A DNA stretch of 30,146 nt from a virus. Below, piece after piece: positions 2,868 through 18,373 of the stretch (positions within the stretch are counted from its first letter, which is position 1; each line of letters begins with the position of its first letter). Location: IMG/VR virus record IMGVR_UViG_3300035698_010675, positions 1-30,146 of that record. One strand, given 5' to 3'. A program made the position numbers and the translations under genes. Below the pieces are notes generated by a model. The model had not been told where the DNA came from. It did no database searches and saw only the letters and a program-made list of their open reading frames with translations.

Positions 2868-4061
2868 TTAACTCGCTCTCTTTCTTTTGATATGATTGTC
2901 TTTCAGTTTCTTTTTGCCGAGTGTTTCATTCCATATATCCCATCTCACAGGCAATCGGTTTTCGTTCATCCGGATTCCTTCATTTAGATATGTTCCGGCT
3001 TTTTCATAATTGCCTGCCGAAAAATTCAAGATAGCGAGATAGTTCAGAATTTCCGGCATAATCATCGATGTATTTGTTGAGCACAGCATTTCATACTGGC
3101 TTTGAGAACCTTGCTGATAAAGCAAATATGCATCTTCGAAAAGTTGTTGTGCTTTTTTGACTTTCTTTACTGTCAAATAATATTGTCCGAGGATTAAATA
3201 AAGTGATATGAGCCGGTCGGAATATGTGAGCGCTTCTCGGAATATTCTTTCGGCGTTTTTTATATCATCCAGCATAGTATATGATGCTAATATATTTGTA
3301 AACGTTTCAAGATAAGCGAACCAGCCTTCATGATAATCCACCCCCCGCATAAGCTCCATCCAATGATCCCCAAGTTCCGTGACTTTCTTGTGGTCATGGC
3401 ACGCATAATAAGTCTTTATAATATGGGTTAAGATGTGCAGGTCGTCGGGATTCTTTTCGTATTCGGATTGGAGCATCGGCAGGCTGCGTTCTTTTTTCTC
3501 CAGGAACAAATCCGCTTTCGAGAAAATATACCCATAGTGATTAACTATTACATTATCGAGAAAAAGATACGGGATATCAACTCGAGGCTTATTGTGGATG
3601 ATAAATTCATATATTGGTTTGCCGATATTTTTAAAAATCCGTGCTTGCATAACTGGCGCAAATTGCCCGTTTCCCCGTGTATAATAATTATGGATCTTCA
3701 TAAATATAGTGTTGGCTTTTTCGCTCTTGGGACTAAATAAGGCTTCTTCGAGGAAATAAAGGCTCTTTTGGTCGAGTTCTTCATCGGAATCCACTGTCAT
3801 AATTAGTTCGCCTTTTGCGAATGATATACAGTAATTTCGTGCTGCGGAGAAATCCCAGGGTATGAATTCTTTTTCATATACCTGGTCTGTATATTCTTTC
3901 GCCACGTCCAGCGTCCGGTCGGTAGATCCGGTATCGACAATAATAAGCTCACACCATTTTTCGTGTATAATCGGCAGAAATGAATCGAGACACCGTTTTA
4001 GATCAGCTTCTTTATCTTTAGTAATCATACATATACTTAATTTTAATTTATTTTCTTTCAT
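2868..4061 (-). CDS. GT2 glycosyltransferase with C-terminal TPR repeats
   Basis: A 397-residue GT-A fold family 2 glycosyltransferase. Residues 8-14 form the first strand (LSICMIT), D43 and D48 lie in IVDTGSTD, and the metal-binding DXD is D91-S92-D93. A W-x-F-S-A-A-R-N motif (about 69-76) is typical of the SunS/TPR-type GT2 group. The rest (about 190-390) is helical with TPR-like periodicity (ILGQYYLTVKKVKKAQQLFEDA; NYLAILNFSAGNYEKAGTYLNEGI), which probably binds a protein acceptor or partner. It would transfer a sugar from a nucleotide-sugar in the cytoplasm; donor and acceptor cannot be read from sequence. The ATG shares its A with the stop codon of the frameshifted chaperone (TAATG), and its own TAA abuts the tape measure GTG, so it is co-translated with the tail genes. 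That position is unusual. Confidence 0.9.
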   Translation of the reverse strand: MKENKLKLSICMITKDKEADLKRCLDSFLPIIHEKWCELIIVDTGSTDRTLDVAKEYTDQVYEKEFIPWDFSAARNYCISFAKGELIMTVDSDEELDQKSLYFLEEALFSPKSEKANTIFMKIHNYYTRGNGQFAPVMQARIFKNIGKPIYEFIIHNKPRVDIPYLFLDNVIVNHYGYIFSKADLFLEKKERSLPMLQSEYEKNPDDLHILTHIIKTYYACHDHKKVTELGDHWMELMRGVDYHEGWFAYLETFTNILASYTMLDDIKNAERIFREALTYSDRLISLYLILGQYYLTVKKVKKAQQLFEDAYLLYQQGSQSQYEMLCSTNTSMIMPEILNYLAILNFSAGNYEKAGTYLNEGIRMNENRLPVRWDIWNETLGKKKLKDNHIKRKRAS

Positions 4062-4752
4062 TATAATAATCCCCCAAGTTCTGATATATCAGTTATTTCT
4101 CTCGCTTTATTTTCATCTTCCGGTTCGTATCGTGGTATTGATAGCATAAGCATAGTCAAGTTTTTCCATGAATATTTCCATAAAATATCGTCTATTGAGA
4201 ATCTGAAATATTTTACAAGTCCTCCGATGATTTCCCACCAGTTAATGTATTCTCCGTGCTTTTCGCCCCGAACAGGTTGAATTTTTTTATCGAGACGATA
4301 GATGCCAAAAAACCTGGAGTATCCATTTGCGCTACAACAAGCTGAACAAGCGTTAATAACTCCATGGCATCAAGGTTTTTGTTTAAAAACCTAACAAGTG
4401 TCCATTTCCTGAACTTATCCCAAGGTGTTAACATTTCTCTATTAAGTATCGTAATCGCTATAATATTTAACACCTTGTCTTTGTTTTCGATTATACTTTT
4501 TACTCCCAACTCAAATAAATCGTCATTTTCGATCGGTTCAATTCTGGGCATTGTGAGAAGTATTTTCGAAATATTAAATAAAGCACCCAATTTAATAGGG
4601 TAAATTATAAATTTCTTTGTTACCCTAATAATTTTCAGTCTGGTCAAAATACCGGGGCTTCGTGTGACTTCAAAATCCACCCCATCTTGCAATAATGTTC
4701 TGACAGCTTGTGCCGCTAATTGATTTTCGTTAAGTTCTGTTTCTTTTTCCAT
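4061..4752 (-). CDS. Tail assembly chaperone, -1 frameshift product (gpGT-like)
   Basis: Predicted join of 4752..4282 and, after a one-base backward slip, 4282..4061. It gives about 230 residues instead of 179. The -1 frame past the slippery site has no start codon of its own but a clearly protein-like sequence: INWWEIIGGLVKYF, then DDILWKYSWKNLTMLMLSIP and an acidic tail. The W/Y-rich pattern with LTMLM matches my recollection of the gpT-like part of tail chaperones. Its TAA stop overlaps the ATG of the next gene at 4061. Without frameshifting this roughly 220-base coding frame would be orphaned. The heptamer and its position relative to the tape measure are sequence facts; production of the fusion is inferred from lambda-like and other siphoviruses. 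Confidence 0.72.
4213..4752 (-). CDS. Tail assembly chaperone, zero-frame product
   Basis: A 179-residue protein in the slot of lambda gpG, two genes downstream of the tail tube and upstream of the tape measure. I chose the ATG at 4752 (MEKETELNEN) because AAAGGGGG lies at a suitable distance upstream; an alternative start ten codons earlier lacks a good site. The sequence is mostly helical, with a segment reading TKKFIIYPIKLGALFNISKILL that resembles, from memory, tail chaperones of Bacteroidetes-type phages. Near the 3' end the zero-frame codons ATA AAA AAA create a slippery heptamer, allowing some ribosomes to make a longer product. The family normally coats the tape measure protein before tube polymerisation. 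No recognised enzymatic motif is present. Confidence 0.7.
   Translation of the reverse strand: MEKETELNENQLAAQAVRTLLQDGVDFEVTRSPGILTRLKIIRVTKKFIIYPIKLGALFNISKILLTMPRIEPIENDDLFELGVKSIIENKDKVLNIIAITILNREMLTPWDKFRKWTLVRFLNKNLDAMELLTLVQLVVAQMDTPGFLASIVSIKKFNLFGAKSTENTLTGGKSSEDL
4282..4288 (-). promoter_or_regulatory. -1 ribosomal frameshift slippery site A AAA AAA
   Basis: Seven consecutive A on the minus strand (T7 on plus). The zero frame of the chaperone reads ATA AAA AAA TTC, so the heptamer is in exact X XXY YYZ register. Slipping back one base joins the frame that stays open to the TAA at 4063-4061. I did not identify a clear downstream pseudoknot or hairpin. Confidence 0.72.
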
Positions 4753-4774
4753 GATATGTGCCCCCTTTAAAAGA

Positions 4775-4851
4775 GATCGCATCCCGGCCGTGACGGGGGT
4801 TAGCGGGAAAGGAAAAAAGCGCTATTGGGATCAACTGCCGGAGATGCGATC
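4775..4851. promoter_or_regulatory. Long imperfect inverted repeat upstream of the tail chaperone
   Basis: GATCGCATCCCGG at 4775-4787 pairs with CCGGAGATGCGATC at 4838-4851, a 13-14 bp stem with one bulge around a roughly 50-base loop. It fills most of the gap between the small gene ending at 4865 and the chaperone, ending close to the chaperone Shine-Dalgarno. No U-run follows, so it is not a typical intrinsic terminator. It could be a processing site, a translational control hairpin or a protein-binding site. Confidence 0.45.
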
Positions 4852-4864
4852 AAGTAAATAGTCA

Positions 4865-5023
4865 TTATACGACTTTGGTGAAATGACGATATGGTTTTTT
4901 AACAACAGGTTTTTTTTCATCCTTAGCATTCACCCGTTCTTCTTCGCCTGTTGGTTTCTCATCCGGCTTTACGCCTGGTTGTAGTTTGTTAATTTCTTCC
5001 GCTTGTTTTTTTCGACTATTCAT
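4865..5023 (-). CDS. Small Lys/Glu-rich hypothetical protein
   Basis: A 52-residue protein if it starts at the ATG at 5023, which has AAAAAAGG just upstream and lies 12 bases after the tail tube stop. The frame is open further upstream, but that part overlaps the tail tube gene and has no good ribosome site. The product is strongly charged (NSRKKQAEEINKL, then a PDEKPTGEEE stretch and a basic C-terminus KKPYRHFTK) and probably disordered. I do not recognise a family. Its place between tail tube and tail chaperone suggests a minor morphogenesis role, but nothing in the sequence shows it. Confidence 0.55.
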   Translation of the reverse strand: MNSRKKQAEEINKLQPGVKPDEKPTGEEERVNAKDEKKPVVKKPYRHFTKVV

Positions 5024-5034
5024 CGTTACCTTTT

Positions 5035-5571
5035 TTATTCGGCGACCTGTGTGATAACACACGGAGAAATTGCCGTTGAAGAGTTCGGCATAAGAATATC
5101 GCATGTGAAAGCGATTGTGCCTGAATCTGTACGCGCGAATCTCAAATCTCCACTTGCCCGGACAGATGCCCTGGGAATTTCAATCTGGAGTTTGTATCCG
5201 TTCATAGCTTTTGAGAGTGCATAAACAGCTTGCTCATTCACCACGGTAGCTGTAACAGGAAAACTGTATACAGTTGTAACGGCGGCGCCCCCGAATGCTG
5301 CGATCAGTGTTTTTGTCCCCATATCCCGGACACCGAATTCAACGAATTTTCTTGCCCCACCGAGAATCTGGATATCGGGCGTATCCTCTTCCTCGATATA
5401 TAAATCGGTCGATGCTGGTAGTTCTACGACCATATGTGCGCTGTCCGGTACAACATTACCGATAGTATTCAATGAAGATGAAGTGGCCGGAAATGAACCA
5501 TAGGACCGCACATCGCACATTGCCAAATACTCAAGTCCGACGAGCCTTATATCTGAACGAAGGTCACTCAT
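5035..5571 (-). CDS. Major tail tube protein (probable)
   Basis: A 178-residue, beta-rich protein with little charge clustering. Features include VVELPASTDLYIEEEDTPDIQILGG in the middle and a C-terminal half ending KLQIEIPRASVRASGDLRF followed by FTCDILMPNSS. The IPRA-containing strand and size fit siphovirus tail tube subunits, particularly those of Bacteroidetes-type phages as I remember them. The position, after the tail completion gene and before the tail chaperone and tape measure, is the canonical place for the tube protein. Start ATG at 5571, stop TAA. I see no added immunoglobulin-like domain. The call rests more on synteny than on sequence motifs. Confidence 0.65.
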   Translation of the reverse strand: MSDLRSDIRLVGLEYLAMCDVRSYGSFPATSSSLNTIGNVVPDSAHMVVELPASTDLYIEEEDTPDIQILGGARKFVEFGVRDMGTKTLIAAFGGAAVTTVYSFPVTATVVNEQAVYALSKAMNGYKLQIEIPRASVRASGDLRFARTDSGTIAFTCDILMPNSSTAISPCVITQVAE

Positions 5572-5589
5572 TATTTTTCACCTCTTTCA

Positions 5590-5997
5590 TTATGCGTATT
5601 GGATTGAAAAGTTTATACGAATTGACGAATAACTCACACCTGATTGATCAATATCCTCCATAACTGTTTGACTGTTAATTTCAAGATGTAAGTATGAAGT
5701 TGTAGATTTATATGCTTCTAAAACTGTGATCACGGCTGCGGTCATAGCGTCAAGGTTTGCATCGTCCGGGATTCCCGTGGCCACGTCTTTGGCGTAACAG
5801 TTTACAATTAAAGTTCCCGGCTGTAAATCGATGTATTTCCCGCCGGTAATTGGTAGCGCCCCGATGACAATATCTCGATACGCTTCTCTATTTACCGGCC
5901 TGCTGTTTCGATAAACCTCTCCTGTTAAAGTTGCCTTGACGGCAGTCACATTCACAACCGGAAAAACTATGTCCAGAACATCAAAGGTAGACTTCAT
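5590..5997 (-). CDS. Tail completion / tail terminator protein (probable)
   Basis: A 135-residue protein with the alpha-beta mixture typical of SPP1 gp17 or lambda gpU-like terminators: an N-terminal helix-strand unit (STFDVLDIVFPVVN), a GTLIVNCYAKD strand, a helix MTAAVITVLEAY and a C-terminal strand RINFSIQYA. It lies between the HK97 gp10-like gene and the tail tube gene, where the tail terminator normally sits. Its ATG at 5997 overlaps the TGA of the upstream gene (ATGA), indicating coupled translation. Family assignment is mainly by position and fold-like pattern. Confidence 0.6.
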   Translation of the reverse strand: MKSTFDVLDIVFPVVNVTAVKATLTGEVYRNSRPVNREAYRDIVIGALPITGGKYIDLQPGTLIVNCYAKDVATGIPDDANLDAMTAAVITVLEAYKSTTSYLHLEINSQTVMEDIDQSGVSYSSIRINFSIQYA

Positions 5998-6721: not shown

Positions 6722-6771
6722 TCTTTACTACCGTCCTATGATTTGAAGGGTAGTGGCCTGATTCTTTATCA

Positions 6772-7095: not shown

Positions 7096-7098
7096 TGA

Positions 7099-8208
7099 TT
7101 AGCCGCCCCAGGTAGTGTGACTTTCAGTATCCAAGCACCAACAAGAGGTGATGGCGCTGAATGACGGGAATGCGTTACATTCGCCCATTGTCCACTCAAC
7201 AAGCGGATTTACCGTCGACCATTTACTCACGAGTACATGACCTTTTTTGGCAAGTGCAGCTTGTTTAGGCGGATTGGTTTCCATCGCTATCGGTCCCACC
7301 TGAAAACTGCCAAGCGGTAATTCCGGTACAAACATGACGTACCGGTCGGCACCGGAAGTATCGAGCCAGGGATCGGTTGAGGCGATTGCATGTTCGGCGG
7401 TTTCGAGATCGATAGAAGTATCAATAACGATAATCGTCGGCAAACCCTGAGAAACCAACATTTCATTTACTTGCTTGAGTGACGGAGCGAGTTTTACCCA
7501 GGCGCCGGAAACATAGCTCGCGCTCGTATAATTTTGCACCTGAGTCGAAGTCCGGAATGCAATCCATTTTGTACGATTCATAACCATGTACTTAATGGTT
7601 GATCCGGCAGCTTTCGCTTCTGCGATAATCGTTTCAATATCGGTTATCGGTATATTGGTTGCAAAAGCGCCGGTAGTCCAGTAATAATTTGCGGCACCTT
7701 CGACTTCTTTGTTAGCTGACGGCAGTCCGAAATCGATAGTGGCTTGTGTTACAATACCGGCGTTATTTGTGGTATTGAGAATGATTTCCCCGCGTGAAAG
7801 TGCCTGAAGAGCAAGCCATTCCATTCGAGCATTAACGCCATCGACACAAAAGTCGACATCACCGAAAACAATATTTAAAAGTTCGTTCAGCCCGGGGACT
7901 CCCATCGCTTTCATTACATTGTAAGCGTTCAAATCAGATTCTTTGAGCGGACGGGAAATCCTTATGGGCGGAATTTCACCCGACAGGCGTTCAATGATTT
8001 TGCGTCTCTTGATAGGCGCCGTTGAATCGTATGCAACGACATCGGCGGCGACTCGGTTGCCTGTATCGCCTAAAAGTGTTTCATAAGTTAGGGCTTGTAC
8101 CCTTTTGACAGGGAAAAAATCAGGAAAATAAAGCCCTGAATAAACTCGACTCGTAAGGTAAATGTCGAGATTTTTCTTCGTTGCTTCCAATAAAATAGAG
8201 TGTTCCAT
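7099..8208 (-). CDS. Major capsid protein (gpE-type)
   Basis: About 369 residues from the ATG at 8208, preceded by AGGAGG eight bases upstream; a GTG three codons earlier overlaps that ribosome site and is unlikely. The N-terminal part reads LTSRVYSGLYFPDFFPVKRVQALTYETL, then ADVVAYDSTAPIKRRK, which matches the lambda gpE-type major capsid family as I know it. The central GVNARMEWLALQALSRGEI is another typical helix, followed by a long domain ending in NPLVEWTMGECNAFPSF. It forms the icosahedral shell on the scaffold. Upstream neighbours are a decoration-like and a scaffold gene, downstream the connectors, giving a canonical head module. Confidence 0.88.
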   Translation of the reverse strand: MEHSILLEATKKNLDIYLTSRVYSGLYFPDFFPVKRVQALTYETLLGDTGNRVAADVVAYDSTAPIKRRKIIERLSGEIPPIRISRPLKESDLNAYNVMKAMGVPGLNELLNIVFGDVDFCVDGVNARMEWLALQALSRGEIILNTTNNAGIVTQATIDFGLPSANKEVEGAANYYWTTGAFATNIPITDIETIIAEAKAAGSTIKYMVMNRTKWIAFRTSTQVQNYTSASYVSGAWVKLAPSLKQVNEMLVSQGLPTIIVIDTSIDLETAEHAIASTDPWLDTSGADRYVMFVPELPLGSFQVGPIAMETNPPKQAALAKKGHVLVSKWSTVNPLVEWTMGECNAFPSFSAITSCWCLDTESHTTWGG

Positions 8209-8221
8209 CTCGAGCACCTCC

Positions 8222-8881
8222 TTATGCGAATCTCATTCGCGCGGTTAAGGGTGTTTTTACGGCTTCATCCGGTGCACCATAAGGCATTAACGATTCATTT
8301 ACGGTGCCGCGAACAACTCCTGCGGCGGTGATATTCTGTAATGTTGTACCGGATTCGAGTCGTATGCGAACAGATTGACGAAGTAGACAATCGGCTGTGA
8401 ATTTAGCCGCGGCTGCGGTAGTAACATCATTATCGCCTTCCTGTAACAGTGTCCCTGTAATAGCGGTACAGTTCAGTCCGCCTCCGCCTGCCTTGAAATA
8501 GATAATATCCGTTCCGATGCCGTTTGTCCGAGCGCCCTTTGTTATGGAGGCGATGGTTGCCGCAGATCCGCGACCGTCAATCATCATCCATTCATCGGCT
8601 TTAAATTCTTGACTCGCGTCATTCGGTATATCGGAACTATAGACGTAAATCGTGACACATGCGTCTGTGCCGAGAGTTCTCTTTAGCTTTGCAGTCTTTA
8701 CGACATTATAAAGCCCGACCGAAGAAGCGCTCTCCGCTAACGGTGTGCCCGGGAAGAGGAATTTAGTCGTTGTCGGTATGCGAGTTACGTCAATCGTCAC
8801 ACCTCCCATGATATCCTCCAGCACTTCAAGAAAAACAGGCTTATATTGTTTTTCTTCATCGCTTATTATTTGTAAACTCAT
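8222..8881 (-). CDS. Probable head decoration / head fibre protein
   Basis: A 219-residue protein between scaffold and major capsid genes, the position of lambda gpD-like decoration proteins. It begins ISDEEKQYKPVFLEVLEDI, then Gly/Thr-rich beta strands with repeated small loops (DGRGSAATIASI; AGGGGLNCTAITGT), and ends ESLMPYGAPDEAVKTPLTARMRFA. The beta-rich, Gly-rich character fits an external capsid protein, and the C-terminal pattern resembles capsid-associated proteins of unknown fold. AAGGAG precedes the ATG. I cannot name a family with certainty. Confidence 0.55.
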   Translation of the reverse strand: MSLQIISDEEKQYKPVFLEVLEDIMGGVTIDVTRIPTTTKFLFPGTPLAESASSVGLYNVVKTAKLKRTLGTDACVTIYVYSSDIPNDASQEFKADEWMMIDGRGSAATIASITKGARTNGIGTDIIYFKAGGGGLNCTAITGTLLQEGDNDVTTAAAAKFTADCLLRQSVRIRLESGTTLQNITAAGVVRGTVNESLMPYGAPDEAVKTPLTARMRFA

Positions 8882-8887
8882 TTTAGC

Positions 8888-9658
8888 TTACTCCTTCTGA
8901 ACAGTTGTAACAGGCTCTCTTGCTGCCTCTTGTTCTGAGGTTATTTTGCCGGGAAAGTCAGGATTTTTAGTCACTGAACCAGTGCCTTTGTTTTTCGCAT
9001 AATCCTTAATATTGCTTTCCTCGACAGATAGACCGGCAGTCCCCTTTTTCACCGGTGCGAGTTCGCCCGCTTCAATATTTTTGTCAATGTTCACCTGCAA
9101 GTGATTGTTGAGTTTTTTATGGAAACTTTCAACCGCTTCGGTGATTTTCTCCGGATTGTCAACTTTGACATACGTCGCAAATTCCTCGCCCAGCCCTACT
9201 TTTTTAAGTTCTGCGCGAACTTGTGAATCGACATCCCTCGTTGAAAATGTGGTTTTTAAACCATCTAATGTTTCGCCTTGTTCTTTAACCATTTCTTTGA
9301 GTGATGCGATTTCTTTTTGATCCGCTGTCATGGTTTCCTGATCCTTTTGTTTCTGTTTTTCTGCCGCCTCTTTCTCTGAGGAGCTTTTGAGTTTTTCGTC
9401 ATGCGTTTTAATGGCTTCCGTGACACGCCGGTCGGTTTCGCTTTCAAGATATTTCTTGACCGATTCGTCAAGCCCGGCTTTTTTTATGGCAGCCCTTAAA
9501 TCGTCACCTGTTAAATTCTTTGTGTTATCCATGTCTTTTTTGAGTGTTGCAACTGTACCCTCAATTTCTTCCACGGTTTTGACATTGATTTTGTCAACCA
9601 GTTCCTCACTCAACCCTGCTTTTTTCAGTGCAGTTTTGATTTCGGTTTCAAATAACAT
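8888..9658 (-). CDS. Capsid scaffold protein (phage minor structural GP20-type)
   Basis: A 256-residue, highly charged (Lys/Glu) helical protein with a central coiled coil (EKEAAEKQKQKDQETMTADQ region, then EIASLKEMVKEQGETLDGLK), typical of scaffolds that template procapsid assembly and then leave. Three related helix units are visible: IKTALKKAGLSEEL near residue 7, LRAAIKKAGLDESV near 55, and VRAELKKVGLGEEF near 150, an internal repeat. It lies directly before the decoration and capsid genes. AAGGAGA precedes the ATG, with a repetitive ACTTAAACTAAACTTAAAC leader. A protease domain is absent, so maturation proteolysis is not indicated here. Confidence 0.8.
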   Translation of the reverse strand: MLFETEIKTALKKAGLSEELVDKINVKTVEEIEGTVATLKKDMDNTKNLTGDDLRAAIKKAGLDESVKKYLESETDRRVTEAIKTHDEKLKSSSEKEAAEKQKQKDQETMTADQKEIASLKEMVKEQGETLDGLKTTFSTRDVDSQVRAELKKVGLGEEFATYVKVDNPEKITEAVESFHKKLNNHLQVNIDKNIEAGELAPVKKGTAGLSVEESNIKDYAKNKGTGSVTKNPDFPGKITSEQEAAREPVTTVQKE

Positions 9659-9754: not shown

Positions 9755-10252
9755 TTAAATTTCTTGTATTTCCAGCCAAATAATCGCATTATTACTGCCA
9801 GACTCGGACTTAGAATATCCAGATATTACAGTCCCTTGGTTAAATATAAACTCCGTTCCGCCCGGAGCTGCCAGAACTTCTCGTTTATTCACATTAGTAT
9901 TACCTTCGATTTGCCTATCCATGAATACAGTTGACCCATCCGTAAATTTTATACGGAACTTTTCTGTTGCATCCGCCTCCGCATTAAAACCAATGATACG
10001 GAATGGTTTTGCGGCGGCAGCGCGTATTTGTACAGGGGCTCCTGTCCATGCGGTTCCTGCTCCGGTAGCAACAGTTACACCAATCTTTATCGCCTCGTGG
10101 ACCTTGGTAACTGAATCCTCTATGTCCGGGATCGTGAAATAAATATTACTGCCAGACAGATGAACAGTTTCCGCGTTTGTGTTATAGTTGTCAATCGCAA
10201 ATACTGACAAAATCAGGAGTAAAACGGTGAATCCGATTATTAATTTTCTCAT
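9755..10252 (-). CDS. Exported hypothetical protein with Sec signal peptide
   Basis: A 165-residue protein beginning with a classical signal sequence: basic start (MRKL), hydrophobic core IIGFTVLLLILSVFAI, then a polar mature region. No lipobox Cys is present, so cleavage rather than lipidation is more likely, or an uncleaved anchor. The mature part is beta-rich (FRIIGFNAEADATEKFRIKFTDGS; EVLAAPGGTEFIFNQG; NAIIWLEIQEI), suggesting a small beta-sandwich. It follows another signal-peptide gene by one base and precedes the scaffold. A secreted product in a head operon is unusual; candidate roles are a surface, superinfection-exclusion or accessory virion protein. No family recognised. Confidence 0.7.
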   Translation of the reverse strand: MRKLIIGFTVLLLILSVFAIDNYNTNAETVHLSGSNIYFTIPDIEDSVTKVHEAIKIGVTVATGAGTAWTGAPVQIRAAAAKPFRIIGFNAEADATEKFRIKFTDGSTVFMDRQIEGNTNVNKREVLAAPGGTEFIFNQGTVISGYSKSESGSNNAIIWLEIQEI

Positions 10253-10253
10253 T

Positions 10254-10652
10254 TTAATTGCCTCCGATTAAAATCGCATTATGAGTTATTGAGGCGGCAA
10301 ATCCATCTGCTTCTGAAATCCATTTATAACGAATGGAATCGGCGAGTCCGACACCGAACCATTCAAATCCGTAATTACCATTTGCCTCATAAACGAGTGA
10401 ATCCGCCCAGACATTAGTCCATTCGCTGTCGCCTGTTTTGGTCTGTAGCGAAACACCTACCGAGGTATCAATGTTTTCAACAGTGAAGTACCATAAAAGC
10501 TTATCATATTTTTGCCCGATTCCGATAGCGGCGGAATTGCCCGGGGCTGTCATGGTAACTGCGTCCGTTGTATAAAATCGGATTATTTGAGCTGAAACCG
10601 AAAAACAGAAAACAGTGAGCAAGATTAAAAAAATAAATGTGGTTCTTTTCAT
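10254..10652 (-). CDS. Exported hypothetical protein with Sec signal peptide
   Basis: A 132-residue product from the ATG at 10652, with GGAGG upstream; this ATG overlaps the TAA of the endonuclease gene (TAATG). The N-terminus MKRTTFIFLILLTVFCFSVSA is a strong Sec signal with a likely cleavage after SVSA, so the mature protein starts near QIIRFYTTD. The rest is beta-rich with aromatic residues (LLWYFTVENIDTSVGVSLQT; YGFEWFGVGLADSIRYKWI). It is paired with the next signal-peptide gene and may form a functional pair. Function unknown; the same alternatives apply as for its neighbour, and the sequence does not choose between them. Confidence 0.7.
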   Translation of the reverse strand: MKRTTFIFLILLTVFCFSVSAQIIRFYTTDAVTMTAPGNSAAIGIGQKYDKLLWYFTVENIDTSVGVSLQTKTGDSEWTNVWADSLVYEANGNYGFEWFGVGLADSIRYKWISEADGFAASITHNAILIGGN

Positions 10653-11299
10653 TATGTCACCTCCGAGCAATTTTTTGATAGAATTTGTTTCATAATTTTA
10701 TTAAAACATTCGTGCGAATCTATATTTATTTCATGTTCCCATAAACGAATTACGCTATACCCCTCAAATGAAGCTCGTAAATCTCTATCTGCATCCCTCT
10801 GTGACATACCTTCTCGATTATGCCGATAGTCGCCATCACATTCCACAATCAGTTGATATTCTGGCAGGTAAAAATCAACGCATCCAACCCCTTTTATATA
10901 TTTCTGTTTATCAAAGGATAGTTTTGCCTTTTTGAATTCAGACTCCATTGCGAGTTCTATACTGGTATCTTTATTCTTGAATCTTCCCGCAGAAAGAGCT
11001 TTGGAACATATTTCACTTAATTTATTCCTTGTTTCTTGTGATACATTTCTTCTTTTATTTGCATCTCCTACTTTTCTTCTGGCTTCGGCTGAAAATATTC
11101 GTCCTTTGCTTTTCTCTCCGATTTTTCTTTTTGTTTCTTCTGAATGATGATTACCCAAGCAATTTTTATTACCAATCATATTTTTTCTATTTGCAGTACC
11201 TATTTTATTTTTTGTTTCTTCCGAGTGTCTGCGACCTTTACTCTTTTCCCCAATTTTTATTTTACTTTCTTCCGAATGTCTAAAACCTTTTAATAGCAT
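10652..11299 (-). CDS. NUMOD3-type homing endonuclease with Vsr/DUF559-like nuclease domain
   Basis: A 215-residue protein. The N-terminal ~95 residues contain about five copies of a G-x-x-H/F-S-x-E-x-K/R-x-K-I-G repeat (GFRHSEESKIKIGEKSKG, GRRHSEETKNKIG and later copies), the NUMOD3 DNA-binding module of phage homing endonucleases. The C-terminal domain (about 115-210) has VDFYLPEYQLIVECDGDYRH followed by RDLRASFEGYSVIRLWEHEI, the PD-(D/E)xK/Vsr-like fold of DUF559 or EDxHD-type homing nucleases. It probably cuts a cognate site in related phages lacking it, promoting its own spread. GGAG precedes the ATG. It sits at the left edge of the accessory island. No group I intron was recognised around it, so it seems free-standing. 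Confidence 0.85.
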   Translation of the reverse strand: MLLKGFRHSEESKIKIGEKSKGRRHSEETKNKIGTANRKNMIGNKNCLGNHHSEETKRKIGEKSKGRIFSAEARRKVGDANKRRNVSQETRNKLSEICSKALSAGRFKNKDTSIELAMESEFKKAKLSFDKQKYIKGVGCVDFYLPEYQLIVECDGDYRHNREGMSQRDADRDLRASFEGYSVIRLWEHEINIDSHECFNKIMKQILSKNCSEVT

Positions 11300-11669: not shown

Positions 11670-12395
11670 TTATAGGGCGGATGATATAGTAACGATATCC
11701 ACAAGTAATATGTTAGCCTTTTTAATATTTCCCTCGCTTGGCAATCTGCTTAAACTATGTGCTTTTTTTATTTCAGTTTCAGCAGCAGCTATATATTTCA
11801 TAACCTTATTAACGGGAATTTTTGCTGTCTTTATTTCAATTAACAACTCAGCATTAGGCCGTGGCATTGACAAGTGACCTGTTTTTAAGAGCTCAGACCC
11901 CTCTTCTAATAACCTCAATACATTCATAGCAGCCTTAGGATCATAACCATATTTTTCAAATAATTCCTTGCGTCTTGCCCCACTACGACCAGTTATTTTA
12001 TTTACCCGATTCAGCTCTGATCGTGCAAATCCTGAATATCGGTGATATATCTGTTTTGTTAAAAATAATTCTCTATTCTCTACCAGTAACCGACCTGCGT
12101 CATTGATATATAATATTTTATCTTCTGGAACAAACAGCCACTCAATACAAGATGGATTGCTATTTAATGCTAATCGGATATACTTTTTTATCGGATGAAG
12201 CACAATGTCATAATCTTCTGTGATCCTATCATAGGTCTTGTAATCATATAATGATATATGTGCATTTACAGACTGACTATAAATACCTCGTATATCATTA
12301 TCACTATCATTAGTCGTTGTGCCGTAAACATCAGAACCATAGACGATTTTTAAAATGATATTTTTAATCGCCTCTGTCATGGTTTCTATTTTCAT
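11670..12395 (-). CDS. RlaP/YcgL-like nucleotidyltransferase
   Basis: A 241-residue protein of the polymerase-beta nucleotidyltransferase superfamily. The active-site signature is Y-G20-S21-D-V-Y-G-T-T-T-N-D-S-D32-N-D34 (hG[GS]...DxD), and a downstream KYGYDPKAAMNVLRLLEEGSELLKTG, then PRPNAELLIEIK, is characteristic of the PF10127/COG3541 group, which includes RlaP of RNA repair operons. Such proteins occur in phage genomes. Whether this copy acts on RNA ends, transfers nucleotides to proteins or modifies a metabolite cannot be told. AGGGGGA precedes the ATG, a G-run ribosome site shared with other accessory genes. A 35-residue membrane peptide reading frame lies directly upstream and in the same frame, separated by a TAG. 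Confidence 0.82.
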   Translation of the reverse strand: MKIETMTEAIKNIILKIVYGSDVYGTTTNDSDNDIRGIYSQSVNAHISLYDYKTYDRITEDYDIVLHPIKKYIRLALNSNPSCIEWLFVPEDKILYINDAGRLLVENRELFLTKQIYHRYSGFARSELNRVNKITGRSGARRKELFEKYGYDPKAAMNVLRLLEEGSELLKTGHLSMPRPNAELLIEIKTAKIPVNKVMKYIAAAETEIKKAHSLSRLPSEGNIKKANILLVDIVTISSAL

Positions 12396-12404
12396 CTTTT
12401 CCCC

Positions 12405-12512: not shown

Positions 12513-12706
12513 TTATTCCCCCTATCTGCAAGACAACAGAAAAGAAAGATTATTATGGGGCAAAAGAGTACTATTGCGAAACCTATTTCCCCTAAATATA
12601 ACGATACAATGGCAGCCAGAGTAAATGGGCTCAGGAATGCTGTGGTAAAAATTTCTAAAGTTGATGGTTCGTATTCAATATTATTAATATCATCATAAAA
12701 TTTCAT
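12509..12706 (-). CDS. Small two-helix membrane protein
   Basis: A 65-residue protein starting MKFYDDINNIEYEP, then two hydrophobic segments (about residues 21-38, FTTAFLSPFTLAAIVSLYL, and 42-58, GFAIVLFCPIIIFLFCCL), ending in a short basic tail ADRGNK. The topology suits a holin-like or glycan-flippase accessory protein, but nothing distinguishes these options and no lysin is nearby. It is coupled to the upstream GT2-methyltransferase gene by ATGA and to the next micropeptide by ATGA, so the three are likely made together. Confidence 0.65.
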   Translation of the reverse strand: MKFYDDINNIEYEPSTLEIFTTAFLSPFTLAAIVSLYLGEIGFAIVLFCPIIIFLFCCLADRGNK

Positions 12707-14217
12707 TTATTCTCCTTTTCCGTAAATAACTTCATGAATTTTCGGTGGAAACCACTAATTTCATCCTTGTATCTGAACAGGAATGAATTGTATTGAAAGC
12801 TTACTTCGACACCGTAAATCTCAATATTTACAGGCTGGAACCCGATTCCGTCGAATATTTCTATGATTTCCGTAATAGAATAGCCCTCATCGATGAATTG
12901 TAGTCGATCCCTGATATGTTCTTTCGCCGATTCCTGATAACGGCCATCCGGTATATTCAGGAATATCCATGTTTTTTCATTTGAATGTCTTTTTATGACC
13001 TGCATTAAATCGGATATATAATGGCGTGGTATATGTTCAAAAACATCCAGCATAACGATACCGTTAAAAATATAGGGAATACCAGCTTTGTCCTTAAAGT
13101 CCATTTCGGTTACATCTCTAATAAAATATTGTATGTTTTTATGTTCGGAATGCTTTTTTGCATATTTAATAAGCTCCGATGATATGTCAGCAGCGGTTAC
13201 TTTCGCTCCCGATTCGGCCATGAATTTTGATATTATACCTGTTCCACAACCAATATCGAGGATATTTTGGGCTTTTATAATCAACGAAGAAAGCTGTACC
13301 TTAATGCGTTCGTGGCGGCCTTTTTTGATTTTAAGGTCATCGATAAGCTTGTCATAGTATTGGGAAATTCTGATCATCGTAGCACGTTTAATATACTCCA
13401 CGAGATTGTGCGCGGCTTTGCCTGTGACTTTATCAAAAGCGTATGCCGTTGTTCCCATGAGTACGGTCAAATCCATTCTGCGGCGGTATTGCTCATGACT
13501 CATGGATTTGGAATTGTCGCCGGTATAGAAATACTCGTTTTGTGTCTCGATTATGCTGTCAAATACACCTTCGGCAAATAAGTAAGTAATGACCACTGAA
13601 TCCTGAACGGCGTTAATTCTTTCGATACCGGCTGCTGTCAAGGCAATGTTGAGTTCCCTGTATGCCGGTATCATTATTTTCCGGTCAAATAATGAACGTC
13701 TGGAAAGCATTCCCTTTCCTTCGGTTAATTGTTTTTCCAGTATTTCAAGAAGTGAACCTTTGGGAGTATTCCATAAATTAATGCTCTTTTTGCCTTTTAG
13801 AATCACTCTGGCCGGTACTGAAATATGGACATTAGAAGGATGATTTCGCCTCAGGGATAAAAGCTCTTGCAAGAGCAGCGGATTGAATGGATCGTCGGCA
13901 TCGTGAAAAAATACAAACTCTCCAGTTGCTTCTAATAAACCTTTAAATTCTGTTATAAAAGTTCCGGCATTATCAGATGAAAGATGCTCGACAAATTCAA
14001 TTCCGTTCCTTTTGAGTATCTTCTCAGCTTTTGTTATTTCTTTTCTTGTCCCGTCTGTCGATCCATCGTCCACAATCACTACTTCGAGCTTTTCGGAATC
14101 ATGCAAGAAAAATCCATCTCCGATTTCCAGGGCGCGTGTCACGATATACTTTTCAGCGTTATATGCCGGTATGATTATGCTGATAATTGGTTGACTCATG
14201 AAATTATAGCCTTTCAT
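12703..14217 (-). CDS. Bifunctional GT2 glycosyltransferase-methyltransferase fusion
   Basis: About 504 residues from the ATG at 14217, which overlaps the TGA of a small upstream gene; an ATG six codons later with AAAGG upstream is an alternative. The first half is a GT-A family 2 enzyme: SIIIPAYNAEKYI, VVIVDDGSTDGTRKEI, then FVFFHDADDPFNP carrying the metal-binding acidic motif. The second half is a class I SAM methyltransferase: ILDIGCGTGIISKFM (motif I), VTAADIS (motif II acidic residue), then GIVMLDVFEHIPRHYI as in Methyltransf_11/23-type enzymes. Linked activities suggest transfer of a sugar and O- or N-methylation of the glycan. Substrates are unknown. It lies in the glycan island with two other transferases and a second methyltransferase. 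Confidence 0.88.
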   Translation of the reverse strand: MKGYNFMSQPIISIIIPAYNAEKYIVTRALEIGDGFFLHDSEKLEVVIVDDGSTDGTRKEITKAEKILKRNGIEFVEHLSSDNAGTFITEFKGLLEATGEFVFFHDADDPFNPLLLQELLSLRRNHPSNVHISVPARVILKGKKSINLWNTPKGSLLEILEKQLTEGKGMLSRRSLFDRKIMIPAYRELNIALTAAGIERINAVQDSVVITYLFAEGVFDSIIETQNEYFYTGDNSKSMSHEQYRRRMDLTVLMGTTAYAFDKVTGKAAHNLVEYIKRATMIRISQYYDKLIDDLKIKKGRHERIKVQLSSLIIKAQNILDIGCGTGIISKFMAESGAKVTAADISSELIKYAKKHSEHKNIQYFIRDVTEMDFKDKAGIPYIFNGIVMLDVFEHIPRHYISDLMQVIKRHSNEKTWIFLNIPDGRYQESAKEHIRDRLQFIDEGYSITEIIEIFDGIGFQPVNIEIYGVEVSFQYNSFLFRYKDEISGFHRKFMKLFTEKENK

Positions 14218-14360
14218 TCTAATTCTGATTCTATGTATTTGAGCCAACAAGCATTACATCTGTGGATATTCACAGTTTTATTCGCTTCTTCAAGGGGACA
14301 ATATGCAAAAGGACATTTTTCATAGGTAAATGATTCAAATAATAATACAATTAATTTCAT
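14214..14360 (-). CDS. Small Cys-rich protein (possible zinc-binding)
   Basis: A 48-residue reading frame in the gap upstream of the GT2 fusion, from the ATG at 14360 to a TGA at 14216 that overlaps the next ATG. The sequence reads MKLIVLLFESFTYEKCPFAYC, then a stretch ending HRCNACWLKYIESELE, with C-x4-C and C-x2-C pairs able to bind zinc. The same frame is open upstream for seven codons to a TAA at 14384-14382, and before that encodes MDLNKKTKGII from an ATG at 14417 that overlaps the preceding gene stop. So a 67-codon gene may carry an in-frame ochre codon, or the 11-codon ORF is a leader with reinitiation. Confidence 0.5.
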   Translation of the reverse strand: MKLIVLLFESFTYEKCPFAYCPLEEANKTVNIHRCNACWLKYIESELE

Positions 14361-14381
14361 TCTCTTTTCATCAGACCACTT

Positions 14382-14417
14382 TTAAATTATTCCTTTTGTC
14401 TTTTTATTCAAATCCAT
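14382..14417 (-). CDS. 11-codon leader ORF or 5' part of an interrupted small gene
   Basis: ATG at 14417 overlaps the TAA of the CgeB-like glycosyltransferase (TAATG) with GGAAGG just upstream, giving MDLNKKTKGII before a TAA. The frame then stays open, after the TAA, into the small Cys-rich gene. It may be a leader that delivers ribosomes to the next start, or the original N-terminus of that gene. Confidence 0.35.
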   Translation of the reverse strand: MDLNKKTKGII

Positions 14418-15442
14418 TATTCACCTTCCTTTTTAATAGACCCGTACAATAGACCCGGTAATATACTCCCCAATCGTTCTGTATATGTATGATCCTCGAG
14501 TACCCTGTGCCGTCCCCAGGCTGCGATTTTCTCCCGGGCTTTGGCGTTTTTGATATAATAAAGGCATTTTTCTATTGCATCTTCGACGTTCTTATAAACG
14601 ATTATTTCCTTGCCCGGTTCAAAGCACTTTCTGATTTCAGCGGAATCCTGTGTCAATAAAAGTGTCCCGCAAGCGGGGATTTCGAAGTCTCTGCCCTTTA
14701 CCTGGTACTTATTCCCTTGAGACGATCCTGACATATTAATGCCGATTTTGCTCTGGTTGTATATTCGGATCATAGTGCCTTGTGATACCTTGAGCTTTTT
14801 TTGTCCCGCCCAGCCTTGTCCGATAGTAAGAATATTAAGTCCTGCTTCCCTCAGCTAGTCGACAAATAGCTGGCGTTCACTGTGACATCTGCCGACAAAC
14901 GATACATCGTATTTTTTAGGCAGCGATAGGTTTTTATAGAGTAGATGATTCGCTCCCCATTGACTCTTGATTACATTCTTTTCGGCGTATTTGCCTTTTC
15001 GCCTCTGATAGCCCTCTTCATCGGTTGTTATGATGTTTTTGAACAGTTCCCAGACAGGCTTTGTTTTCTCGTAACGCCATTGGTCGTCTGCGAGGTGAAT
15101 CACCTTTTCAACTTGCATTTCTTTCCAAACATCGTGATCGATCCAGTCGTGGTAATGAACGTAGAATACCAGATCAGGGTTGTAATAGCAAACAGCTTCC
15201 TTGAGTATTTGAGACATGCTGAAGTTGCCGAATCGCTTTCTTAGCTGTTCATAGTCGAAATAAACGAGGGAAAATCCCATCGCCATGAGTGTATGATAGA
15301 AATTATAATGCTCATAACTCAGCCCCCAATCCATGTGCCCGTAGTCGTATTTCATGCCGACGTATAAGATGGTTTTGCGGTCCGGGATGATTCTCGTTTC
15401 AAGCATTTCGTCAACGAATACTTCCATTGCCATTTTTTTCAT
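14417..15442 (-). pseudogene. CgeB-like GT-B glycosyltransferase interrupted by an amber codon
   Basis: The frame from the ATG at 15442 (with AAAGGA upstream) to the TAA at 14419-14417 encodes about 341 codons, interrupted once by TAG at 14857-14855. Upstream: TILYVGMKYDYGHMDWGLSYEHYNF, a DLVFYVHYHDWID strand, and YDVSFVGRCHSERQLFVD. Downstream in the same frame: LREAGLNILTIGQGW, KIGINMSGSSQG, KGRDFEIPACGTLLLTQ, and a final helix. The order matches the DUF3880 plus Glyco_trans_1_2 arrangement of CgeB-type glycosyltransferases. No frameshift is needed, so a single base change, a sequencing error, or amber suppression would explain it. If the TAG terminates, the product is a 196-residue N-terminal half without the donor-binding domain. 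The second half has an internal ATG at 14773 but no good ribosome site. Confidence 0.8.
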
Positions 15443-15444
15443 CA

Positions 15445-15879
15445 CTATTTTCCTTTCACCTTCAAAAATCTACAATTATGACAAACGGATTTTTTCGAAA
15501 CCTTGGTGAATGGTTTTTTCATTTTAAGCAAAATCGTGTGTCCCATGGAATCTTTTTCCTTCTTTTTATAGTGCAGGAAACTAGCACACGAAGCACTCTC
15601 TTTTAAAAAATGCTGTGGATTTACGTCTCGATATCCAGTCGGATACCCAACTTGACTAGGCCATAGTACTGTGCAGATATATTTTTTCTTCATCATTTTC
15701 CCTCCTGTCGGGTTGTTTCTTAGTTTTGTTGTCTCGCACCTTTTTAGATAATCCTCGTATGAAGATTGAGTGCGTAGGGTGCCCTGAGGTTCTAATTTAG
15801 TCATAAAAAAGAAAAGCGCTGCTAAATGACTATATTGTTCTTCAGTCATTGGTTGTGTTAGATATTTTTTCTTCATCAT
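15445..15879 (-). CDS. Cys-containing hypothetical protein with a second in-frame start
   Basis: A 144-residue frame starting MMKKKYLTQPMTEEQYSHLAAL. At about residue 62 the sequence MMKKKY recurs with its own ribosome site (GGAGGGAAA before ATGATGAAG at about 15697), nearly copying the primary start (GGGGGAAA before ATGATGAAG). The downstream part, about 83 residues, ends in CHNCRFLKVKGK, a zinc-ribbon-like pair. The gene may therefore yield a long and a short product, or be a recent fusion of two genes with duplicated initiation regions. The stop is TAG followed by TGA in frame. Start ATG overlaps the methyltransferase stop. No family recognised. Confidence 0.55.
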   Translation of the reverse strand: MMKKKYLTQPMTEEQYSHLAALFFFMTKLEPQGTLRTQSSYEDYLKRCETTKLRNNPTGGKMMKKKYICTVLWPSQVGYPTGYRDVNPQHFLKESASCASFLHYKKKEKDSMGHTILLKMKKPFTKVSKKSVCHNCRFLKVKGK

Positions 15880-16547
15880 TTTCCCCCGTCCTTTCCACGT
15901 TCGGATGCACGTTGAGTTTCAAAAGCCGGCGTTTGCGGTTTCTTGGCCTTTATTCCCATCTGCCCCATCCATGCAGCAAAGAGAACTCCGGGTTCAATAC
16001 TGGCTTCAAAACAAGCCATATAATTGATAATATCCCCCCTTGCATCTTCATCTGATTTAACTTTTTTATCTTTAATGCCGGTAAATCCAATACTGGGAAA
16101 CTGTTCTATTAATTCATACTCACGCTTATTGAAGCCCACAACAGAGAACATAAAGTTTAATTTTTCTACAGTGAAACCATCGTAATGTGTGCCGTACTGA
16201 ATAGTGTCCTGCGGACCGTAAAGATGGCGAAACCAGAACTGTTGTTCCTGTGCGCTGTCTGATGCCTCGATCATTTTTACTGTTTTTAGGAAATCCGGGA
16301 CTAAAATCGATAAAACACCTCCGTCTGTTTTGAGCCATTTATAAAACTTCCGAAGCTGCATTATCGCAACATGGCGTGGGAAATGCTCGAATACGGCTAC
16401 CATGAGGATTTCGGCTATTGAATCGTCGGGAAAGCTTAAATCCTCGATTTTGCTGTAAAGATCAGCTTTAACCGTGTCTTTATTACCTACGTCGACATTT
16501 ATCCATCCGTCAATGTAGCGATGCCCGCAGCCGAGGTGTAGTTTCAT
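15876..16547 (-). CDS. SAM-dependent methyltransferase (COG4627-like)
   Basis: A 223-residue class I methyltransferase beginning directly with motif I (KLHLGCGHRYIDGWINVDVG), then AEILMVAVFEHFPRHVAIMQLRKFYKWLKTDGGVLSILVPDF, the post-I and central strand region in which the H-E/H-FPR loop is typical of predicted SAM methyltransferases of glycan biosynthesis loci. The C-terminal third is less conserved and ends in a basic tail (QRASERGKDGGK). A likely role is methylating a sugar or related small molecule, consistent with its place among glycosyltransferases. The ATG overlaps the TGA reached if the amber codon of the upstream small gene is read through. Confidence 0.85.
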   Translation of the reverse strand: MKLHLGCGHRYIDGWINVDVGNKDTVKADLYSKIEDLSFPDDSIAEILMVAVFEHFPRHVAIMQLRKFYKWLKTDGGVLSILVPDFLKTVKMIEASDSAQEQQFWFRHLYGPQDTIQYGTHYDGFTVEKLNFMFSVVGFNKREYELIEQFPSIGFTGIKDKKVKSDEDARGDIINYMACFEASIEPGVLFAAWMGQMGIKAKKPQTPAFETQRASERGKDGGK

Positions 16548-16600
16548 ACCATCCTCTCAAATAGTTTATCCCTTGCTGTTCGCTTCGCTGTGACCTCTCT

Positions 16601-16726
16601 CTAGAATTGACGGCGTTCGTACCGTTTGTAGCCGGCGGCGTCCATCCAGTCGTCGAGTAGCTCGAGCACCTTGACACCTTTGCGAAGCCTGCGACGAGCC
16701 CAGAATAGTTTAAACCTTTTTAGCAT
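16601..16726 (-). CDS. Small basic protein with an amber codon and open readthrough frame
   Basis: Found by reading the gap. The ATG at 16726 lies two bases after the TAG TAA end of the Cys-rich gene. It encodes 41 residues (MLKRFKLFWARRRLRKGVKV, then LELLDDWMDAAGYKRYERRQF) to a TAG at 16603-16601. The frame continues as REVTAKRTARDKLFERMV and ends in a TGA overlapping the next ATG (ATGA), the typical junction of this operon. From memory, phage proteins of this type have RRQFW at this point, so the TAG may replace a Trp codon. The segment is visibly more GC-rich than its neighbours. Function unknown. Confidence 0.55.
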   Translation of the reverse strand: MLKRFKLFWARRRLRKGVKVLELLDDWMDAAGYKRYERRQF

Positions 16727-16730
16727 TTTA

Positions 16731-17405
16731 CTACCTTTCTTTCCCAAACTCTTTTAAACATTCTTTGCAACGCTCCGATCTGTCCTCATAAACACTTAGA
16801 CTTTTTTTATATAAATTACAGCATTTTGGAAATACCTTATCCAGATAATTACAATCAAACCCGCAATAATCGTGGGAATGTTCATCAACAATAATAGTAG
16901 TTACTTTCCCGGTTGGCATAATAGACCGAGTACGAGAACAGGTGTAATTCATTTTATCCAATGGCACTTCATTTTCGTATCCGGGATCAGCAATATGTAC
17001 AGCACTATAATCAGTGCTTCTTCTACCATAATTCTTTACTTCGTCAAGCGGCGCTTCATTCCATGAGTAGCCACAGTTGAAACAGGTGCGGGCGATATGT
17101 TCATATTTTACCGCATAGTTCCGTATGTCGATAATTCCGTAAGGAATGACCTTTTCTATAAAATCATTCTTATTCCAATGCTTGTTTTTAATGCCAGTAC
17201 ACCGACATTTCGGGCATTTAGCGTTAGGATTGTACGGTTTCATTTCGTCAATACGTATTCCTATACCCGATGTAGGGAAACTTTGCGCCGTCATGCTATC
17301 TCTTTTAAAAGGACATTTTCCATTAACGAGTTGAAGGCACTCTGATTGATTAGCCCCCTCTTTTGTGCATTGTGCAAAACTTTTAAATCCTGTAGGGCAG
17401 TTCAT
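16731..17405 (-). CDS. Multi-zinc-ribbon hypothetical protein
   Basis: A 224-residue protein with many paired cysteines: an N-terminal CPTGFKSFAQC, CPKCRC near residue 74, CFNCGYSW near 108, then CGFDC and a C-terminal C-K-x-C-L pair (RCKECLKEF). At least three potential zinc knuckles are present. No catalytic motif of a known enzyme is seen. AAGGAAAA precedes the ATG at 17405, which overlaps the stop of the preceding glycosyltransferase gene. It is the largest member of the set of Cys-rich proteins in this window. It could bind nucleic acid or proteins; the sequence does not decide. Confidence 0.65.
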   Translation of the reverse strand: MNCPTGFKSFAQCTKEGANQSECLQLVNGKCPFKRDSMTAQSFPTSGIGIRIDEMKPYNPNAKCPKCRCTGIKNKHWNKNDFIEKVIPYGIIDIRNYAVKYEHIARTCFNCGYSWNEAPLDEVKNYGRRSTDYSAVHIADPGYENEVPLDKMNYTCSRTRSIMPTGKVTTIIVDEHSHDYCGFDCNYLDKVFPKCCNLYKKSLSVYEDRSERCKECLKEFGKER

Positions 17406-18373
17406 TTTTCCTTCTTTCCCTTTCTCCCCAGCCTGTCCACAAGGCTTTTGAGTTGTCTTATCTCGTGCTTACGTGTCCACCCGCGGTCGATGATATGCTG
17501 TCGGATGTTTTCCGGCGACAGAGAACCAACATCCATGTGGATGTGATCAACAGCCTCTTTAACCGTGTTGTACAGCCATGTTTCCGGGTACAGCCCCTTT
17601 GCACCATAGAAATTATGAACTACCGGCCTGAGTCCCCTGGCGGCGCCTTCCATGATGTTCAGCGGATGCCCTTCGTGAATGCTGGTAGACAGGATCGTTC
17701 CTTTGTCTTTCCAGAATGCATTCATGTCTTTGACGAAGCCGTAATAGATGATATTCTTCTCGATCCCCATTTCTTTTATCATGTGTTCCATGTAGATTTT
17801 ATATCGGTCATCCTGGAACGCACCGGCGACATGAAGTTTAAATCCTGGATTAATTTTTACGAGTTCTGCCATAATCTGAAGGGCAAGCGCGGGTTCTTTC
17901 TTGTGATTAATATTACACACATACGCAATATCGTACATGTTATAGGTTTTATTCGGGGGGATCCCTGCGATGTCCAGCCCATTGGGGATTATCTTTGTGC
18001 ATACCTTTTTTTGAATGTCGGGGATGTATCGTTTTACAATTTCCCGGATATGCGGAGCGACAAAAACGAGATAATCGACAACCGTCCAATTAACCTGTTG
18101 CGGCATATTCGACAGAGATTCGTAACTGTGAAGCCGGATAATGATACCTTTTTTTTCAACGTCGTAAATCTTTGTTGCCACGATAGCCGTTTCATTGCAC
18201 CATTCGACGAATAACCTGTCCGCCCACTTGATAGCGGCGATAATTTCCTGTTGTGTTTTGACGTAATACCGGCGGACCTGGTACTGTTTGAACTTCTCAA
18301 ATTCTTGTACAATCGGCTCGATGAAAGTTTCGAGTCCCTTTGCGCATAGAAATGCAAGTTTAACCTTTTTCAT
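17402..18373 (-). CDS. GT-B glycosyltransferase (GT4/GT1-like)
   Basis: A 323-residue protein from the ATG at 18373 (MKKVKLAFLCAKGLETF), chosen because GGAAAGGGAAC lies upstream; the open frame extends further without a good site. The N-terminal domain has a Rossmann-type strand and RLHSYESLS; the hinge is TKIIPNGLDIAGI, followed by YDIAYVCNINHKKEPALALQIM, then FKLHVAGAFQDDRY, IIYYGFVKDMNAFWK and the donor-site loop TSIHEGHPLNIMEGAARGLRPVV with the conserved EGxPLxxxEA-like motif. It would transfer a sugar from a nucleotide-sugar. Donor and acceptor are unknown. It is the upstream-most glycosyltransferase of the accessory island. Confidence 0.88.
   Translation of the reverse strand: MKKVKLAFLCAKGLETFIEPIVQEFEKFKQYQVRRYYVKTQQEIIAAIKWADRLFVEWCNETAIVATKIYDVEKKGIIIRLHSYESLSNMPQQVNWTVVDYLVFVAPHIREIVKRYIPDIQKKVCTKIIPNGLDIAGIPPNKTYNMYDIAYVCNINHKKEPALALQIMAELVKINPGFKLHVAGAFQDDRYKIYMEHMIKEMGIEKNIIYYGFVKDMNAFWKDKGTILSTSIHEGHPLNIMEGAARGLRPVVHNFYGAKGLYPETWLYNTVKEAVDHIHMDVGSLSPENIRQHIIDRGWTRKHEIRQLKSLVDRLGRKGKKEK

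Follow-up and report, generated by a model that had tools for sequence, protein, structure and literature searches.

Two conserved glycosyltransferase genes in the head and tail gene block of an uncultivated phage clade: a probable system for virion-protein glycosylation

Glycosyltransferase genes lying among the head and tail genes of a phage raise the question of what their products modify. We asked this of a 30,146-base linear viral contig (IMG/VR record IMGVR_UViG_3300035698_010675; the whole contig is referred to as the window), a partial siphophage contig from an uncultivated tailed phage that carries a set of glycan-type genes between positions 2868 and 18373. Relatives were gathered by scans with the product of gene 2868-4061 (GT2-TPR, a GT2 domain followed by tetratricopeptide repeats, TPRs), with the capsid protein and with two alignments. 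This gave loci from 57 contigs, the window included; the contigs are fragmentary and come from a limited set of metagenomes, and E-values of the locus scans are relative to the candidate stretches. Two genes, those for GT2-TPR and for a GT-B glycosyltransferase, are core genes of the clade, while the remainder is variable cargo. It is on balance probable that the gene products assemble a glycan on at least one structural protein of the phage itself; virion-protein glycosylation and methylation is the best-supported reading, for which we infer activity, acceptor and sugar. The two core genes are:

2868..4061, minus strand: GT2-TPR glycosyltransferase, predicted polypeptide (priming) glycosyltransferase of the GmaR/SunS type, between a chaperone-like gene and the tape-measure gene
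17402..18373, minus strand: GT-B, GT4-like glycosyltransferase (PF00534, 1e-13), between the MuF and scaffold genes

GT2-TPR matched PF00535 (6e-17) and phrog_13126 (8e-20), and its DxD motif (D91-x-D93) was invariant across 9 sequences. Individual Pfam TPR models lay at or under their cut-offs; the C-terminal helical repeat appeared in the AlphaFold model as helical pairs, mostly with a predicted local distance difference test score (pLDDT) of 80-92, and matched TPR and SunS structures in Foldseek. Profile searches returned GmaR as the best Protein Data Bank (PDB) match (22ao, 7e-32 over about 200 residues) and SunS at 4e-11 over about 235 residues. Judged by sequence, GT2-TPR is related to GmaR and SunS beyond the generic GT2 family, and these two polypeptide glycosyltransferases are its closest solved relatives with known function. 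The top six Foldseek matches of the model were ThuS/SunS and spanned both domains; the TM-scores were low, at 0.25-0.30, which presumably reflects uncertainty in how the two domains are placed towards each other.

GmaR is a GT2 and TPR enzyme that transfers N-acetylglucosamine to flagellin, and recognition of the substrate protein by the TPR domain has been proposed (PMC9638930). The Listeria enzyme likewise has an N-terminal GT2 domain followed by TPR repeats; unlike it, GT2-TPR lacks the MogR antirepressor domain and is encoded by a phage, and its acceptor would be a virion protein. The SunS/ThuS glycocin S-glycosyltransferases (PDB 7msk, 7msn, 7msp) have the two-domain layout in common with GT2-TPR. 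Unlike in their case, no precursor-peptide or transporter gene was recognised, and identity is about 15%.

The reading frame of GT-B opens at 18472 (TTG) and its conserved start is 18373. The E-x7-E motif (E233 and E241 of A3) was invariant in 24 sequences, and the model (pLDDT 91) gave GT4-like structural matches, including the peptide O-linked N-acetylglucosamine transferases SdgB and GtfA. GT-B is assigned to the retaining GT4 enzymes, since both the GT-B fold and the EX7E motif were found. It has these in common with BshA, SdgB, GtfA and TarM; unlike them it is shorter, and it has no relative in the cultured-phage collection. The fold matches span SdgB/GtfA and BshA/TarM, so that GT-B alone does not tell the acceptor. 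One GT-B match (G013:C1:30723-31640) has an internal TAA, which may mean that the core GT-B is broken in that relative or that its sequence was misassembled. A divergent relative without GT-B, L095, carries a sulfotransferase-like gene (L095:2427-3167; PF13469, 1e-7) at the cargo site, where GT-B would be.

Analysis of gene order revealed that GT2-TPR is present in 37 contigs (31 groups at 95% identity). The tape measure is the next gene (28 contigs) or the next but one (6) in all 34 that continue past GT2-TPR, and the chaperone-like gene lies at most four genes upstream in 34 of the 37. GT2-TPR is followed after 0-6 bp, or with a slight overlap, by its neighbouring gene, which is the tape measure in nearly every case. 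GT-B was found in 36 contigs (29 groups) and, by profile, in three more; MuF lies upstream in 29 contigs and scaffold lies downstream in 23, and neither landmark was ever found on the opposite side. The fixed positions of the two core genes in 37 and 36 contigs are more than chance. Median pairwise ratios of nonsynonymous to synonymous substitution rates (dN/dS) were 0.09 for GT2-TPR, 0.12 for GT-B, 0.12 for the methyltransferase (pairs including separate and fused forms), 0.12 for the capsid and 0.17 for the tail protein. GT2-TPR and GT-B are under strong purifying selection, comparable to that on the major capsid protein. Distance matrices of GT2-TPR correlated with those of GT-B (r 0.97, n 15), the chaperone-like gene (0.95) and the capsid (0.83), with permutation p 0.001 each; these correlations reflect shared descent, not interaction.

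The invariant position beside the tape measure would also fit a GT2-TPR that is mainly a tail-assembly factor, its catalysis lost or never needed, with the GT-B block as an unrelated cargo site, and GmaR shows that a second binding role is possible for GT2-TPR proteins (PMC9638930). The invariant DxD motif and the co-inheritance of GT2-TPR with GT-B argue against this explanation, which we consider improbable. Another possibility, to our judgement unlikely, is that GT2-TPR glycosylates the tail-tube or tape-measure protein as an obligatory, clade-wide step of tail morphogenesis, and that GT-B, methyltransferases and donor sugars diversify the glycan. The enzyme would then be co-translated with the tape-measure protein and bind through its TPRs, with linkage possibly through cysteine, as in SunS.

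The gene set between MuF and scaffold varies from phage to phage. A sequence-only reading of this DNA had treated its glycan genes as one multi-enzyme system; that all of them form a fixed set is not supported, only GT2-TPR and GT-B being constant among the relatives. Domain matches did bear out the enzymes it had named, a TPR-GT2, a GT2-methyltransferase fusion, a GT-B and a separate methyltransferase, the last weak alone. The genes at this site, apart from GT-B, include:

12703..14250, minus strand: GT2-methyltransferase fusion (PF00535, 1e-16; PF13489, 6e-17)
14417..15445, minus strand: CgeB-like GT-B gene, interrupted, in halves 14855-15445 and 14417-14854 (PF13524, 9e-27, in 14417-14854)
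15876..16547, minus strand: separate class I methyltransferase (PF13489, 0.0066)
16731..17405, minus strand: Cys-rich protein, no function assigned, with a 4-bp overlap with the end of the GT-B gene

The fusion carries a GT2 domain at about residues 20-285 and a class I methyltransferase at about 295-507, and its true start is likely near 14199. In L046, L072 and L144, GT2 and methyltransferase are encoded by two neighbouring genes. Another fusion occurs in five loci (L149, L150, L152, L154 and L157), its GT2 part being just 27% identical to that of the window; L154, the one scanned of the five, has the methyltransferase before the GT2 domain, the reverse of the window's order. Fusion here, together with adjacency or reverse fusion in relatives, suggests that the two activities work on one product. 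The separate methyltransferase has one relative (L146, 68% identical), which reaches PF13489 at 1.2e-6.

An in-frame TAG (14855-14857) breaks the CgeB-like gene in two, so that the PF13524 domain expected of it is present in an interrupted frame; complete copies of 324-398 amino acids occur in four relatives (L143, L146, L150 and L157/L088), and L152 has a fragment cut by the contig end. Stop-codon recoding was rejected, as TAG also terminates the neighbours 15445-15879 and 16731-17405, the terminal TAG of 15445-15879 is directly followed by TGA, and a search of the window for tRNA genes found none. Silent and decaying genes had been named as the outcome that would speak against a functional system; decay applies to the CgeB-like gene here, but not to the two core genes or to the methyltransferase family in relatives. 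That the genes as a whole are neutral or decaying accessories is hardly credible: this TAG and the TAA inside one relative's GT-B match fit it, and the dN/dS of about 0.1 of the core genes opposes it.

Nucleotide-sugar synthesis genes, which the sequence-only reading had proposed to look for, were found at the same locus in relatives and not in the window. In L148, L155, L156 and L167 a DegT aminotransferase, a Gfo/Idh dehydrogenase and a hexapeptide acetyltransferase lie close together; the closest solved relatives include the 3q2i dehydrogenase (3.6e-74), which we take to be WlbA, QdtB (3frk) and WbpE, and QdtC (3fs8). A short nucleoside diphosphate (NDP)-sugar 6-dehydrogenase was present in 18 contigs and, where placed, lies between portal and MuF. 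Judging from their families, these enzymes together would make an acetamido sugar, probably a uronic acid. Pathways of the UDP-acetamido-uronic acid and QdtABC types group Gfo/Idh, DegT and hexapeptide N-acetyltransferase enzymes in the way seen in the four relatives; unlike in those pathways, the relatives' NDP-sugar 6-dehydrogenase is short (about 265 amino acids) and without the C-terminal domain. Single-sequence pattern scans of viral contigs gave no close relatives of the GT2-methyltransferase fusion or of the CgeB half, but later alignment scans with the two core enzymes did recover relatives of both. Relatives found through the terminase alone had no glycosyltransferase genes in common with the window.

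Under virion-protein glycosylation, the glycan would be made in the cytoplasm during late gene expression. GT2-TPR, produced beside the tail genes, would most likely use its helical repeat to recognise a virion protein, either folded or still being assembled, and put the first sugar on side chains; the GT4-type GT-B would next add another sugar, with a nucleotide sugar as donor. In phages that have them intact, the CgeB-like enzyme and the fusion's GT2 half would extend or branch the chain, and methyltransferases would cap or methylate it. In relatives the phage dehydrogenase, aminotransferase and N-acetyltransferase would supply the acetamido sugar donor. The decorated particle may gain an altered surface, with effects on stability, shielding or adhesion.

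Nearly all genes of the window lie on the minus strand, in a block of terminase, portal, MuF, scaffold-like, head-fibre-like, major capsid, connector, major tail, chaperone-like, GT2-TPR and tape-measure genes. The glycan-type genes are co-oriented with terminase, portal, MuF, capsid and tape measure, as the sequence-only reading had stated. Operon structure was deduced from orientation and spacing alone, since counts of promoter-like sites (slightly more frequent than in shuffles) and terminator-like sites (at chance level) are uninformative. Candidate acceptors, landmarks and other genes of the window are:

3..2867, minus strand: tape-measure protein (partial), start adjoining the GT2-TPR stop, matching the annotated tape measure of a Riemerella phage
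4213..4782, minus strand: tail-assembly-chaperone-like gene, between major tail protein and GT2-TPR, with homologous, syntenic genes in Riemerella and Porphyromonas phages
5035..5571, minus strand: major tail (tube) protein, candidate acceptor
7099..8217, minus strand: major capsid protein, candidate acceptor, with a C-terminal tail bearing Ser/Thr
8222..8881, minus strand: head-fibre/decoration-like protein, candidate acceptor
8888..9658, minus strand: scaffold-like protein, landmark downstream of the cargo site
20061..21011, minus strand: MuF-like minor head protein, landmark upstream of the cargo site
22391-23773, minus strand: portal, SPP1-type
24200-25480, minus strand: large terminase
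26272..28059, minus strand: polytopic membrane protein with C-terminal TPRs, candidate GT-C, upstream of TerS and outside 2868-18373

The capsid proteins of the clade mostly end in a short Ser/Thr-containing tail (e.g. LDTESHTTWGG), a possible glycosylation site.

Several points weigh against a virion protein as the acceptor. The acceptor is predicted from distant homology and position, and TPRs alone, from which protein acceptors had originally been argued, do not show one; what upholds that proposal is the GmaR/SunS matches, the tape-measure adjacency, selection and co-inheritance. Confidence in the GT2-TPR model is medium (pLDDT 67), its TM-score to SunS is just 0.26, and the nearest folds of GT-B also include small-molecule and lipopolysaccharide (LPS) or teichoic acid enzymes (BshA, TarM). 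One gene of the set, the CgeB-like gene, is interrupted, most relatives are contig fragments, and the sugars could go instead to secreted proteins from the same block. An integrase in 2 of 10 longer contigs makes a lysogenic change of the host surface possible for some members.

The main rival is that the enzymes remodel secreted proteins or a glycan of the host surface (capsule, LPS or teichoic acid), which would block superinfection or change adsorption. It ranks first because proteins with signal-peptide-like N-termini share the block; we nevertheless hold it unlikely. The resemblance of the GT-B fold to TarM, BshA and LPS enzymes, among others, speaks for it, as do the likeness of the relatives' sugar genes to bacterial LPS acetamido-sugar genes, the window's membrane TPR protein and two proteins with signal-peptide-like N-termini, and the two contigs with an integrase. 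On the other side, the constant genes sit in the capsid and tail blocks rather than in a lysogeny region, GT2-TPR resembles polypeptide glycosyltransferases, and the membrane protein is not conserved. O-antigen conversion of the gtr type is disfavoured, the GtrA flippase being absent from all ten contigs while control genomes were positive.

The membrane protein at 26272-28059 had been read as a GT-C enzyme of the system. It is polytopic, with about 11 hydrophobic stretches ahead of the TPRs, but its N-terminal 430 residues matched no Pfam family and no solved structure, and a GT-C identity is only plausible. Pattern scans of viral contigs and alignment scans with the core enzymes found no relatives of it in the clade; it is unique to this contig, and its membership of the glycan system is doubtful.

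Glycosylation of phage DNA bases is very improbable. Phage glycosyltransferases can hypermodify DNA, according to work cited in PMC12619734, and some relatives carry DNA methyltransferase-like genes (MT-A70), but a thymidylate-synthase-type base hydroxymethylase was found in none of the ten contigs, which are possibly incomplete, while control genomes were positive. A search of the contigs for TET/JBP oxygenases gave no match, and its control matched nothing either. A TPR domain and a place in the tail module would be unexpected for a DNA-modifying enzyme.

Riemerella and Porphyromonas phages share the order capsid, connector genes, tail protein, chaperone-like gene and tape measure, with detectable homology, but GT2-TPR and GT-B profiles had no match in their corresponding stretches. 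A tblastn search of GT-B against 50,697 phage records gave no match, and GT2-TPR gave just nine partial matches. The lack of core-enzyme matches in cultured phages of the same gene order points to a module gained by, or kept only in, the uncultivated clade. Host hints diverge: relatives of the large terminase point to Clostridia and Marinitoga phages, and capsid and tail synteny to Bacteroidota phages.

Virion glycosylation is known from mycobacteriophages (Freeman et al. 2023, as cited in PMC12619734 and PMC12691614), with reports of glycans on the C-terminal ends of the capsid and tail-tube subunits (PMC12619734). There too the glycosyltransferases are phage-encoded, and capsid or tail-tube protein is the target that we propose here; the core genes of the present clade are under selection and linked to structural genes, as expected for virion glycosylation of this type. 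In mycobacteriophages the glycan was observed, while here it is deduced from genes. The present clade is unrelated to those phages, has as its main enzyme a GT2-TPR fixed in place next to the tape measure, and also carries genes for methyltransferases and for donor synthesis.

Virion glycosylation has so far been documented in a few mycobacteriophages; in the clade described here, all of it uncultivated, a glycosyltransferase of the polypeptide type is a core gene of the tail module. At the cargo site, glycan-building and donor-making enzymes are exchanged like surface-antigen genes. If the favoured reading is true, phage particles would diversify their sugar coat much as bacteria do theirs, with consequences for stability, adsorption and recognition. 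It would also bear on phage annotation, in which genes of this kind are usually classed as host-takeover morons. One beside the tape measure and the other in the MuF-scaffold gap, the two core genes are simple markers for cultivable relatives.

Further genes were noted around the core genes. In many relatives a small C39-peptidase-like gene (weak, E 0.003; e.g. L082:4113-4475) lies upstream of GT2-TPR, followed by a second small conserved gene (cluster c19); glycocin operons likewise pair a C39 peptidase with a SunS-type enzyme. Large family-unassigned proteins (L079:6737-8926, L083:6660-9692, L085:735-3464, L154:11084-12421; 729-1010 amino acids where complete) are inserted between the major tail protein and GT2-TPR, and may be virion adhesins or glycan acceptors. 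The major tail protein gene is in tandem duplicate in two near-identical relatives (L053/L054, 12567-13675).

Between the glycan genes and scaffold, the window encodes two small proteins with signal-peptide-like N-termini (9755-10252 and 10254-10670), which might act as partners in the periplasm or at the surface; L046, L073, L074, L095 and L144 carry homologues, or different proteins that look secreted, near the equivalent spot. At 11670-12395 an RlaP-like RNA-repair nucleotidyltransferase (PF10127, 4e-27; phrog_388, 2e-48) lies within the structural block. Gene 10652-11299 encodes a homing-endonuclease-like protein with a repeat N-terminus and a Vsr/DUF559-like end, whose relatives are inserted at many sites of the clade (L051, L075, L079); in L075 such a gene sits between GT2-TPR and the tape measure.

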